DNA of 64,000 bases from contig NZ_CP058579.1 in assembly GCF_013402875.1 (NCBI RefSeq), positions 2,294,001 to 2,358,000 of the forward strand, in the 5' to 3' direction. Below are positions 7,860 through 43,656 of this stretch, in pieces. Made by a program: the position numbers and the translations under genes. The notes under the pieces are model-generated. The model saw only the letters and a list, made by a program, of their open reading frames with translations. It had not been told where the DNA came from and made no database searches. Numbering within the stretch: the stretch's first letter is position 1; each line of letters opens with the position of its first letter. Source of the stretch: Halorarum salinum. Lineage in GTDB: Archaea; Halobacteriota; Halobacteria; Halobacteriales; Haloferacaceae.

Positions 7860-8079
7860 AGGTGTATACCTACGTCGAACAATCCCTTAAGGAGTACGTC
7901 TAACGTATGACCAGTACGGGAACTGGCTCAGATGGTCTTGATTCGCGATTCGTGGGGTGAGTATACGCGAAGAACACACCCGATCGATCGGAGGTACTTA
8001 TGCATGGAAATACAGTTTGTACAACCCATTCCACATCTAGGAATCGGGATCCGTACTCCATGACCAACGGAGGTAACCC

Positions 8080-39139: not shown

Positions 39140-40540
39140 ATGGAGAGCGTGAACCCGGCGACCGGCGAGACGCTGGAGACGTACGAGGAACACACCGATG
39201 CCGAGGTGGACGAGGCGCTCGACGCGGCGACGGCGGCGTTCGAGGAGTGGAGCGACGAGTCGTTCGCGCACCGCCGGACGCTGCTGACCGAGGTCGCCGA
39301 CCTGCTCCGCGACCGGGTCGACGAGTACGCCGAACTGATGGTCGCCGAGATGGGGAAACCGATCTCGCAGGCCCGGGCGGAGGTGGAAAAGTGCGCGACC
39401 GGCTGTGACTACTACGCCGAACACGCGGAGGAGCACCTGGCCGACGAGGTGATCGGCACGGAGGCCGACGCGCACACGCTCGTCTCCTACGAACCGCTCG
39501 GGCCGGTGCTGTCGGTGATGCCGTGGAACTTCCCGTTCTGGCAGATGTTCCGCTTCGCCGCGCCGAACCTCGCCGCCGGCAACGTGAGCCTGCTGAAACA
39601 CGCCTCGAACGTCCCGGGCTGTGCGGTCGCCATCGAGGAACTGTTCCGGGACGCGGGCTTCCCGGAGGGGGCGTTGCAGTCGCTGCTCGTCGGGTCGGAC
39701 GAGGTCGACGATGTCATCGAGGACGAGCGGATCCGCGCGGTCACGCTCACCGGCAGCGTGGGGGCGGGCCGCTCGGTCGGCGAGACCGCCGGGGCCGAAC
39801 TGAAGCCCTCCGTGCTCGAACTGGGCGGGAGCGACCCGTTCGTGGTGCTCGAGGACGCCCCGATCGACCGGACCGTCCGGAGCGCGGTGTACGGCCGCTG
39901 TCAGAACAACGGCGAGTCCTGCATCGCGGCCAAGCGGTTCGTCGTCGTCGACGACGTGTACGAGGAGTTCCTCGACCGGCTCGTCGAGGGGATGGAGGGG
40001 TTGACGATCGGCGACCCGACGGACGAGGGGACGGAGCTCGGACCGATGGCACAGGAGGGGCTCATGGATGGACTCCACGAGCAGGTGGAGGCGACCGCCG
40101 ACGCGGGCGCGACGGTCCACGTCGGCGGCGAGCCGATGGACCGCGAGGGGAACTACTACCCGCCGACGGTGCTCTCGGAGATCCCGGACGGGTCGCCCGC
40201 GGACGACGAGGAGCTCTTCGGGCCGGTCGCGTCCGTCTGGCGGGTCGACGACGAGGCGGAGGCGATCGAGAGGGCGAACGACACGCAGTTCGGCCTCGGG
40301 GCGAGCGTGTGGACCGGCGACCCGGAGCGGGGCGAACGGGTCGCCCGCGAGTTCGAGGCGGGCTGCTGTTTCGTCAACGAGATCGTCAAGTCCGACCCGC
40401 GGCTCCCGTTCGGCGGCGTCAAACACTCGGGGTACGGCCGCGAACTCTCCCGACACGGCATCAGGGAGTTCGTGAACCGCAAGACTGTGTGGGTCCAGCA
40501 CGGCGACTCGCCCACGGGGCTGGACTCCCTGTCGGAATGA
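39140..40540 (+). CDS. NAD(P)-dependent aldehyde dehydrogenase, SSADH-like
   Basis: A 466-residue aldehyde dehydrogenase: Asn130 in 'VMPWNFPFWQ', 'TGSVGAGRSVGE', Glu227 in 'LELGGSDPFVVL' and the nucleophile Cys261 in 'NNGESCIAAKRF'. The N-terminus (ESVNPATGETLETY) and the length match bacterial and cyanobacterial succinate semialdehyde dehydrogenases. The ATG at 39140 gives this start; the frame from 39050 is upstream padding. Its stop overlaps the ATG of an IlvB-like enzyme (ATGA). Together they could turn 2-oxoglutarate into succinate through succinate semialdehyde. Confidence 0.87.
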   Translation: MESVNPATGETLETYEEHTDAEVDEALDAATAAFEEWSDESFAHRRTLLTEVADLLRDRVDEYAELMVAEMGKPISQARAEVEKCATGCDYYAEHAEEHLADEVIGTEADAHTLVSYEPLGPVLSVMPWNFPFWQMFRFAAPNLAAGNVSLLKHASNVPGCAVAIEELFRDAGFPEGALQSLLVGSDEVDDVIEDERIRAVTLTGSVGAGRSVGETAGAELKPSVLELGGSDPFVVLEDAPIDRTVRSAVYGRCQNNGESCIAAKRFVVVDDVYEEFLDRLVEGMEGLTIGDPTDEGTELGPMAQEGLMDGLHEQVEATADAGATVHVGGEPMDREGNYYPPTVLSEIPDGSPADDEELFGPVASVWRVDDEAEAIERANDTQFGLGASVWTGDPERGERVAREFEAGCCFVNEIVKSDPRLPFGGVKHSGYGRELSRHGIREFVNRKTVWVQHGDSPTGLDSLSE

Positions 40541-42129
40541 CCGTCTCCGATCTCGTCGTCCGCTGTCTGGAGGCCGAGGGCGTCGAGTACGTGTTCGGCC
40601 TCCCCGGGGAGGAACTGGAGGACCTCCTGTTCTCGCTGCGGGACTCCGAGGTGACGTTCGTCCCGACCCGCCACGAACAGGGCGCCGCGTTCATGGCGAA
40701 CGTCCACGGCCGGCTGACCGGCGAGGCGGGGGTGTGTCTCGCCACGCTCGGCCCCGGCGCGACGAACCTCATCACGGGCGTCGCGGACGCCCAGCTCGAC
40801 AAGGCGCCGCTGGTCGCCATCACGGGCCAGGGCGGGCGCGAGCGGCTCCACAAGGAGAGCCACCAGCGGCTCGACGTCGTCCACGCGTTCGAGCCGCTCG
40901 TGAAGTGGAACGCGCAGCTCTCGGACGCGGCGGCGACCGCCGAGACGGTCCGGAAGGCGTTCAAGGTCGCCGAGTACGAGAAGCCCGGCGCCACCCACGT
41001 CGAGGTCCCCGAGGACGTCGCGGCCGAGTCGACCGGCGCCGAGCCGCTGCCGACGCGGGACGCGGTGACCAGACCCGCCCCCGCGGAGGGGGCGATCTCG
41101 GCGGCGGTCGAGACGCTGGAGGCCGCCGAACGCCCCCTCGTGCTCGCCGGCAACGGCGCGGTCCGAACGGACGCGGCGGACGCGCTCCGCTCGTTCGTGG
41201 ACTCGACGGGGATCCCCGTCGTCGCGACCTACATGGGGAAGGGGGCGCTGTCGGACCGGGACGAGCGCTCGCTGATGACGATCGACTCGGGGCCCGACGG
41301 GGAGGCGGCCGGCGCGGTCGAGCGCGCCGACTGCGTGCTCGCGGTCGGCTACGACATCGCGGAGCACGACCCGGCCGGCTGGAACCCCGACCGCGACAAG
41401 CGGGTGGTCCACCTCGACTCCGAGCCGGCGGAGGTGTACGCCCACTACGTCCCCGACGTCGAGATCGTGGCGGACCCCTCGACGGGCCTCTCGCGGCTCG
41501 CCGAGTCGATGGGGAGCCGGTGGGACGCGTGGTGCGTCGACGCCCACGAACGGGTGTACGAGCACGCGACCGAGCGCCCGCAGGCGGCCGACCCGGTGAC
41601 GGTGACCAACACGCTCCCGTTCCTCCGCGAGGCGATGGCCGACGGGGACGTGCTGATCTCGGACGTCGGGAGCCACAAGCTGGCCATCGCCCGCGACTTC
41701 CCGACGTACGAGCCGGGCCGCTGCGTCATCTCGAACGGGCTGGCGAGCATGGGCATCGCGGTCCCGGGCGGTCTCGCGGCGGACCTCGCGCTGGAGGACG
41801 ACGTGGTCGTGGCGACCGGCGACGGCGGCTTCCTGATGAACGCCGCGGAACTGGAGACGGCGACGCGGCTCGGCTGCTCGTTCACGGTCGTCGTCTACCG
41901 CGACGGCGAGTACGGGGTCGTCGCGGAACACCAGCAACAGCACCGCGGCGAGTCGGTCGGGACCCGGTTCGGGAACCCGGACCTCGTCGCGTTCGCCGAG
42001 AGCTTCGGCGTCTCGGCCACGCGAGCGGAGACGCTCGGGGGGTTCGCGGACGCGCTCGACGCGGTCGAGGCGGACGAACTGTCCCTGGTCGAGGTCGTCC
42101 TCTCGGAACCGCCGGACCGGCGCGCGTGA
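40537..42129 (+). CDS. IlvB-like ThDP enzyme, candidate 2-oxoglutarate decarboxylase
   Basis: A 530-residue thiamin-diphosphate enzyme of the acetolactate synthase large-subunit family. N-terminal PYR domain: 'EGVEYVFGLPGEELEDLLF', with cofactor-activating Glu47 in 'RHEQGAAFMA'; then 'TLGPGATNLITGVADAQLDKAPLVAITGQ', 'KESHQRLDVVHAFEPLVKWN'. The PP domain has 'SNGLASMGIAVPGGLAADL' and GDGGFLMNAAE (about 428-438). No regulatory small subunit is encoded nearby, unlike biosynthetic IlvBN. It overlaps the aldehyde dehydrogenase gene by four bases. The same gene pair in Synechococcus was shown to be 2-oxoglutarate decarboxylase plus SSADH, so that role, or another 2-oxoacid decarboxylation, is proposed. 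Confidence 0.8.
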   Translation: MTVSDLVVRCLEAEGVEYVFGLPGEELEDLLFSLRDSEVTFVPTRHEQGAAFMANVHGRLTGEAGVCLATLGPGATNLITGVADAQLDKAPLVAITGQGGRERLHKESHQRLDVVHAFEPLVKWNAQLSDAAATAETVRKAFKVAEYEKPGATHVEVPEDVAAESTGAEPLPTRDAVTRPAPAEGAISAAVETLEAAERPLVLAGNGAVRTDAADALRSFVDSTGIPVVATYMGKGALSDRDERSLMTIDSGPDGEAAGAVERADCVLAVGYDIAEHDPAGWNPDRDKRVVHLDSEPAEVYAHYVPDVEIVADPSTGLSRLAESMGSRWDAWCVDAHERVYEHATERPQAADPVTVTNTLPFLREAMADGDVLISDVGSHKLAIARDFPTYEPGRCVISNGLASMGIAVPGGLAADLALEDDVVVATGDGGFLMNAAELETATRLGCSFTVVVYRDGEYGVVAEHQQQHRGESVGTRFGNPDLVAFAESFGVSATRAETLGGFADALDAVEADELSLVEVVLSEPPDRRA

Positions 42130-42488: not shown

Positions 42489-42621
42489 TCGTCACTGCGG
42501 TGGGGGCTGAGGGACTCAACGAGACGAGCCATCGGGCTGGGAGCCCTCGAACGAGTGCGGTTCTCTCTACTGTCGAACCCGGGTCGGAGGGCTTTTGCCC
42601 CGCCGCCCCGCCCCCGCGAGC

Positions 42622-43656
42622 ATGGGAGACGACGGCGGGAACGGGGACGCTGGGAGGACCACCGAGCGCGCCGACGGGGACGCCGAGGAACTCACCTACG
42701 CCGACGCGGGCGTGGACATCGACGCGAGCGAGGCGGCGACGGCGGCGCTCGTCGGCGCCGCCGCGGGCGGCGACCTGGGCGCCGACGGAAGCGACTACGC
42801 CGGCCTGCTGGACATCGGCGACCGCTACCTCGCGCTCGCGACCGACGGCGTCGGCACGAAACTGCTCGTCGCGGAGGCGCTCGGGGACTACTCGACGGTC
42901 GGGATCGACTGCATCGCGATGAACGCGAACGACCTCGTCGCGGCGGGCGTCCGTCCGGTCGCGTTCGTCGACTACCTCGCGGTCGAGGAGCCCGACGAGA
43001 CGTTCGCCGAGCAGGTCGGCGAGGGGCTCCGCACGGGCGCGGAGGCGGCCGACGTCGCGCTCGTCGGCGGCGAGACGGCGGTGATGCCCGAGGTCGTCCG
43101 GGGGCTCGACCTCGCCGGGACCTGCGCGGGGCTCGCACCGAAGGACGCCGTGTTCGACGGGACCGCGGAGCCGGGGGACGCGCTCGTCGGCTGGGAGTCC
43201 TCGGGGATCCACTCGAACGGGCTCACCCTGGCCCGGGAGGCCGTCACGCGCGAGGGCACCTACGCGGACCCCTGCCCGCTCGAGGGATACGACACGCTGG
43301 GGGAGGCGCTGCTGGAGCCGACGCGGCTCTACACCGACCTCCTCGACCCGATGCGCGAGCACGGCGTCCGCGCGGCCGCACACGTCACCGGCGGCGGGTG
43401 GACCAACCTCGAGCGCATGGGCGGGCTTCAGTACGAGATCGAGGACCCGTGGCCGGCCCAGCCCGTGTTCGAGTTCGTGCGGTCGGCGGGGAACGTGAGC
43501 GAGGAGGAGATGCACCGGACGTTCAACGTGGGGACCGGGTTCGTCGCGGCGCTCGCCCCCGCGGACGCGGAGGCGCTCGCGGCCGAGACCGGCGGTCGGG
43601 TCGTGGGCCGCGTCGAGGCGGGCGAGGGCGTGGCGATCCGCGGGCTTGAACTGTAA
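42622..43656 (+). CDS. purM: Phosphoribosylformylglycinamidine cyclo-ligase (AIR synthetase)
   Basis: A 344-residue PurM, catalysing ATP-dependent ring closure of FGAM to AIR in purine synthesis. Signature parts: 'LTYADAGVDIDASEAATAAL', 'LATDGVGTKLLVAEAL', 'GIDCIAMNANDLVAAGVRPVAFVDYLA', 'ALVGGETAVMPEV', 'GDALVGWESSGIHSNGLTLAREAV' and 'HVTGGGWTNLERM'. The ATG at 42622 is chosen over one at 42595 because the extra nine residues are basic and Pro-rich. An acidic 22-residue extension precedes the domain. It stands alone, after the repeat region. Confidence 0.94.
   Translation: MGDDGGNGDAGRTTERADGDAEELTYADAGVDIDASEAATAALVGAAAGGDLGADGSDYAGLLDIGDRYLALATDGVGTKLLVAEALGDYSTVGIDCIAMNANDLVAAGVRPVAFVDYLAVEEPDETFAEQVGEGLRTGAEAADVALVGGETAVMPEVVRGLDLAGTCAGLAPKDAVFDGTAEPGDALVGWESSGIHSNGLTLAREAVTREGTYADPCPLEGYDTLGEALLEPTRLYTDLLDPMREHGVRAAAHVTGGGWTNLERMGGLQYEIEDPWPAQPVFEFVRSAGNVSEEEMHRTFNVGTGFVAALAPADAEALAAETGGRVVGRVEAGEGVAIRGLEL

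Follow-up and report, generated by a model that had tools for sequence, protein, structure and literature searches.

The window analysed here, a stretch of 64,000 nucleotides from the haloarchaeon Halorarum salinum (contig NZ_CP058579.1, positions 2,294,001 to 2,358,000), encodes on its forward strand a tightly packed pair of genes for an aldehyde dehydrogenase (466 amino acids) and, following it, an IlvB-like thiamine diphosphate (ThDP) enzyme (530 amino acids). The two probably constitute a coenzyme A (CoA)-independent, NADP-linked bypass from 2-oxoglutarate to succinate, a prediction whose substrate, flux direction, cofactor and role are deduced from sequence, and which has its basis in gene structure, clade membership, conserved residues, co-occurrence and gene context. 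In the proposed mechanism, the genes would act as a two-cistron operon, in which the ThDP enzyme would convert 2-oxoglutarate into succinic semialdehyde and CO2 by non-oxidative decarboxylation and the coupled dehydrogenase would yield succinate by oxidation of the semialdehyde, with NADP+ as the probable cofactor. It would be a bypass of a known kind, in a domain for which no report of a 2-oxoglutarate decarboxylase of this type was found in the open-access literature, where absence is not proof.

The two reading frames share an ATGA stop/start overlap (...GGAATGACC...), an arrangement consistent with translational coupling. An earlier reading of the window (hereafter the original prediction) had described this overlapping pair, and both genes are real and full-length: the Pfam domain Aldedh is complete in the first (E 1.8e-141), and TPP_enzyme_N, M and C are all complete in the second (E 3e-37, 5e-31 and 1e-28), which carries the three ThDP domains together with the catalytic Glu47 and the GDG motif (Asp429). 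It had also pointed to the lack of an IlvN small subunit, and indeed no IlvN gene lies beside the pair; the next reading frame downstream (42595-43656) encodes an AIR-synthase-family protein, and a separate IlvB of the biosynthetic type is found elsewhere in the host genome (C1:3540564-3542096).

A comparison with all PDB sequences placed the succinate-semialdehyde dehydrogenase (SSADH) of Synechococcus PCC 7002 (4it9; 507 bits, ~52% identity) first for the dehydrogenase, followed by E. coli Sad. In the cyanobacterial SSADH, succinic semialdehyde is held by Arg139, Trp135 and Ser419/420, as established by mutagenesis or structure, catalysis involves Cys262, Glu228 and Asn131, and the preference for NADP+ is set by Ser157 and Lys154 (PMC7510979). 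The motifs carrying W130, N131, W135, R139, K154, S157, E228, C262 and S419 are all kept in the window dehydrogenase, with the two NADP-preference residues present in the motif LKHASNVP. The nearest solved relative and the intact substrate and NADP sites thus argue for the SSADH type originally proposed. The cut-offs of the NCBIfam SSADH equivalogs were not reached (the one narrow model PRK09406 gave 601.6 bits, below its cut-off of 730), and the assignment is therefore based on the comparison with PDB sequences and on these residues.

The ThDP protein shares 44% identity with a Picosynechococcus-type OgdA (the reference being from a close relative of PCC 7002 whose SSADH differs at 5 positions from that of PCC 7002), 35% with AlsS, 31% with the IlvB of the host and 26% with E. 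coli IlvB and Gcl. In a tree with outgroups, the haloarchaeal, cyanobacterial, methanogen and Pseudomonadota proteins formed one clade (99/93) without AlsS, IlvB, Gcl, PoxB and Oxc. When the distant outgroups were left out, this superclade was split from AlsS at 100/100, and the haloarchaeal proteins formed their own long branch (100/100) within a multi-way split. Judged by these trees, the window protein belongs with the 2-oxoglutarate decarboxylases as opposed to AlsS or IlvB, outside the cyanobacterial group and not as its sister.

The Microcystis enzyme MaKGD acts on 2-oxoglutarate but showed no activity with any of the five further 2-oxo acids that were assayed; its E50A variant is inactive, and docking predicted contacts between 2-oxoglutarate and Gln254, Lys386, Leu467 and Lys471, of which only Leu467 was mutated, with L467A lowering kcat 2.9-fold and changing KM little (PMC10418658). 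Across 51 haloarchaeal proteins, Glu50, His385, Lys386, Ala408, Met410, Asp435, Asp462 and Tyr465 (MaKGD numbering) are invariant. Lys386 is likewise kept in 15/15 cyanobacterial and 19/19 other superclade sequences, the position being occupied by Ala or Tyr in AlsS and by Gln in IlvB. Position 471 is Lys in 33 of the haloarchaeal proteins, His in 6 (with His in the window), Gln in 6, Asn in 3 and Glu in 3. It varies in related proteins also, and since Leu467 is the only docked contact that was mutated, these contacts were not treated as defining. The motifs quoted for the ThDP protein in the original prediction were found in its sequence. Some of the docked 2-oxoglutarate contacts are not conserved in the lineage of the window.

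The pair is not peculiar to the Halorarum salinum genome. With an orthologue threshold of E under 1e-110, 113 of the 293 haloarchaeal genomes carried the ThDP gene, among them 93 of the 255 of good quality, and they were distributed over many families. Among 99 relatives, the dehydrogenase accompanied the ThDP gene in 42/42 genomes, compared with 15/57 genomes without it (Fisher p 1.3e-15, relatedness ignored), and the co-occurrence persisted at a completeness of at least 90% (39/39 versus 15/40, p 1.6e-10). When species were compared within a genus, the two genes were jointly present or absent in seven genera, and the opposite direction was never seen. The SSADH gene lies immediately upstream in 26 of the 42 ThDP-positive genomes (gap -19 to 62 bp), at most 3.5 kb away on the same strand in 6 and elsewhere in 10; with 26 of 42 immediately upstream on the same strand, the arrangement is not due to chance. 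A conserved third gene was looked for in 25 haloarchaeal neighbourhoods and dropped, as nothing beyond the pair recurs in them.

Related loci in other genomes add to this picture. Wherever enough DNA was available, cyanobacterial SSADH loci nearly always have the ThDP gene directly downstream; the pairing likened originally to that of PCC 7002 has the identical gene order, and most of the SSADH-linked ThDP proteins match 17/17 published MaKGD positions in register, tying them to the 2-oxoglutarate-active enzyme. In one group of methanogens (L182 and L183, from two genomes), SSADH and the ThDP enzyme are followed in an operon by SdhA, SdhB and a member of the fumarase/aspartase family, which looks like a 2-oxoglutarate-to-fumarate module with steps toward fumarate and beyond. 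A glutamate dehydrogenase gene is located near the ThDP gene in the haloarchaeon G067 and in another methanogen (L184), the latter with glutamine synthetase nearby too. At the Pseudomonadota locus L196 (993-7710), the ThDP decarboxylase gene is followed by genes for an Fe-alcohol dehydrogenase, a class III polyhydroxyalkanoate (PHA) synthase and a CoA-transferase. This may be a naturally occurring cluster for making 4-hydroxybutyrate polyester, which would lead from 2-oxoglutarate via succinic semialdehyde and 4-hydroxybutyrate to the polyester. In one haloarchaeal genus (four loci in four genomes), a stand-alone sdhB paralogue is divergent from the decarboxylase gene, and no sdhA was found nearby. 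The sets of SdhAB and fumarase family, glutamate dehydrogenase, and alcohol dehydrogenase with PHA synthase point to succinic semialdehyde, and the neighbours of the relatives are as would be expected for an enzyme producing it.

Several observations weigh against the predicted route. To our knowledge, none of the archaeal members has a known activity. The haloarchaeal ThDP proteins sit on a long separate branch, and a single clade of haloarchaea and cyanobacteria was mildly rejected (approximately unbiased test, p 0.03); the ThDP protein still groups with the cyanobacterial 2-oxoglutarate decarboxylases rather than with AlsS or IlvB, but the haloarchaea stand apart. Within the docked site, Lys471, Leu467 and Gln254 are replaced in the genus of the window by His, Val and Gly, respectively, and all haloarchaea lack the cyanobacterial Trp388 and Trp470 (mostly Ala and mostly Glu, respectively); this loss and the variability at position 471 leave room for an altered substrate range. 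The absence of Kor, the ferredoxin-dependent enzyme of the 2-oxoglutarate step, is not associated with the ThDP gene, which occurs in 3/8 Kor-less genomes (completeness at least 85%) versus ~39% overall. Finally, the pair in G068 lies between leuD and a leuB-type gene, inside an ilvC-leuCD cluster (ilvC, leuC and leuD recognized by eye from sequence, the leuB-type gene by NCBIfam).

The substrate could thus be another dicarboxylic 2-oxo acid, such as 2-oxoadipate or a substituted 2-oxoglutarate, with the dehydrogenase oxidizing the matching semialdehyde in amino-acid or sugar-acid breakdown. The unusual active-site entrance and the separate branch would suit such a function, as would the patchy spread of the gene, which is typical for catabolic genes. 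We nevertheless consider it unlikely, as the dehydrogenase retains all residues of the succinic semialdehyde site and is nearest to true SSADHs, the neighbours in relatives are enzymes of 2-oxoglutarate and succinate metabolism, and the haloarchaeal pair has no further recurrent neighbour.

An acetolactate synthase that condenses two pyruvates, be it catabolic and AlsS-like or an additional IlvB, with the dehydrogenase as an incidental neighbour, is improbable. It is suggested by the top NCBIfam model of the ThDP protein, PRK08322 'acetolactate synthase large subunit' (577 bits against a cut-off of 509), by the best PDB matches, which are AlsS entries, and by the surroundings of the pair in G068. 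However, PRK08322 also gives 874-883 bits for the ThDP genes in three genomes of cyanobacteria, and its cut-off is passed in B. subtilis and Methanosarcina acetivorans as well, though by no gene in Haloferax volcanii; a model that covers the cyanobacterial 2-oxoglutarate decarboxylases and passes in B. subtilis cannot discriminate by its name, which was rejected as evidence. An AlsS identity is not supported: the AlsS models remained below their cut-offs (409.9/510 and 378.3/551 bits) and AlsS falls outside the clade with 100% support. A biosynthetic IlvBN likewise finds no support, given 26-31% identity, a separate clade and the AIR-synthase-family gene in the downstream position. The distinct IlvB of the genome and the conserved linkage to SSADH further disfavour an acetolactate synthase. 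A carboligase that decarboxylates 2-oxoglutarate and passes the carbanion to an acceptor (cf. M. tuberculosis KGD/HOAS and MenD), leaving SSADH only to clear leaked semialdehyde, has precedent in related ThDP enzymes (PMC10418658), and the residue changes next to the pocket could make room for an acceptor, but it is very improbable in view of the tight SSADH linkage and the cyanobacterial relatives, which are plain decarboxylases (PMC10418658).

The predicted bypass has to be placed beside the established enzymes of the citric acid cycle. In haloarchaea, the 2-oxoacid steps are carried out by PorAB and KorAB and are described as ferredoxin-linked (PMC8305020). The host carries alpha subunits of both Kor and Por. 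Going by the lengths of the Halobacterium proteins, we take the type of 580-590 amino acids to be KorA and that of 640-650 amino acids to be PorA; a beta subunit of ~288 amino acids adjoins the shorter alpha type, which supports the KorA label. The original proposal of a bypass accordingly stands as a route consistent with the pair, the clade and the contexts, but not as a replacement of Kor in this organism. Here, it would run beside the ferredoxin-dependent enzyme and would supply NADPH, where Kor gives reduced ferredoxin and succinyl-CoA. Loss of Kor as the general driver was dropped, since across the 293 genomes a lack of KorA shows no association with the gene. The general role would therefore be that of a parallel route, with replacement possible in a few lineages.

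Three such haloarchaeal genomes, G067, G068 and G069, have both genes of the pair and lack KorA, and all keep citrate synthase, isocitrate dehydrogenase (Icd), SdhA, SucC and fumarase. The pair could replace Kor in them, since KorA is absent and the other tested genes of the cycle are kept, and it may be the only link of the oxidative cycle there. The genes are adjacent in G067, which has two adjacent copies, and in G068, and apart in G069. The assembly of G069 (98% complete, 1.9 Mb, 120 contigs), with its unlinked decarboxylase and SSADH genes, has no detectable Por or Kor alpha subunit. A broader picture for the archaea, of a widespread CoA-free succinic-semialdehyde route beside Kor that serves as the sole cycle closure in the three Kor-less genomes and has a methanogen version in a succinate-to-fumarate operon, is conceivable, and we put it forward tentatively and with some doubt.

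If the prediction is true, a second, NADP-linked and CoA-free route in ~40% of haloarchaeal species would alter flux models and help explain haloarchaeal lineages without Kor. The clade also yields testable predictions in the methanogen 2-oxoglutarate-to-fumarate operon and the bacterial 4-hydroxybutyrate/PHA cluster. The database name of PRK08322 is misleading and should be corrected, as the model covers cyanobacterial 2-oxoglutarate decarboxylases. A second type of protein was observed inside this model, with the motif DNG-YK-WFAR and with FQ replacing SHQ, in Pseudomonadota (L166-L179, L193 and L195) and Myxococcales (L158 and L197); several of its Pseudomonadota members adjoin a different aldehyde dehydrogenase, with ~31% identity to that of the window.

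Table 1. Positions of the gene pair and of selected active-site codons in the window
Feature	Coordinates	Strand	Basis
Succinate-semialdehyde dehydrogenase (SsaD/GabD1-type), 466 amino acids, predicted NADP+-preferring	39140..40540	+	PDB comparison and kept residues
ATGA stop/start overlap	40537..40540	+	Sequence; spacing of -19 to 62 bp across 26 genomes of haloarchaea
ThDP-dependent 2-oxo-acid decarboxylase, predicted 2-oxoglutarate decarboxylase (OgdA/KGD-like), 530 amino acids	40537..42129	+	Identity and tree
Catalytic Glu47 (= MaKGD Glu50)	40675..40677	+	Alignment
Lys381 (= MaKGD Lys386, docked to 2-oxoglutarate)	41677..41679	+	Alignment
His465 (= MaKGD Lys471, predicted by docking to form a salt bridge with 2-oxoglutarate), substituted in the genus of the window	41929..41931	+	Alignment

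The upstream neighbour of the pair (Table 1) is a gene for an M50-type peptidase. The host genome comprises 4.26 Mb in two contigs and has seven TPP_enzyme_N loci. Elsewhere in the window, the GC content falls from ~70% to 58-59% between positions 8001 and 24000, and this segment encodes two rhodanese/metallo-beta-lactamase fusions, a TauE/SafE transporter and an MFS transporter; it looks like an acquired sulfur-metabolism island.

The closest known counterpart is the cyanobacterial OgdA/SsaD bypass (SYNPCC7002_A2770/A2771 and Microcystis MaKGD). The haloarchaeal pair has the same order and strand, with SSADH preceding the ThDP gene, a dehydrogenase of the same family with all tested succinic semialdehyde and NADP residues, and a ThDP enzyme from the same superclade that keeps Glu50, Asp435, Asp462, Tyr465, Met410 and Lys386 of MaKGD. 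It differs in its identities of just 44% and 52%, in the separate haloarchaeal clade and in a host that has Kor and Por, and also in the ThDP protein itself, where the C-terminal region around Tyr531 is shortened or unaligned, Trp388, Trp470 and Gln254 are lost and Lys471 is variable. The pairs of a methanogen family resemble it in that SSADH adjoins the ThDP gene in several genomes and Lys386 is kept; unlike it, one methanogen group has the pair in the SdhA/SdhB/fumarase-aspartase operon, with the DNG-YK/FQ motif set, and in another, genes for glutamate dehydrogenase and glutamine synthetase lie close to one member. B. subtilis AlsS (4rjj) shares the domain order, the fold family and ~35% identity, and AlsS entries are the top PDB matches, but it lies outside the clade, lacks Lys386 and has Gln and Phe at positions 471 and 470. 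KorAB, the 2-oxoglutarate:ferredoxin oxidoreductase, would act on the same metabolite at the same step of the cycle if the prediction holds, whereas its architecture is unrelated and requires CoA and ferredoxin; the genome of H. salinum encodes both systems.

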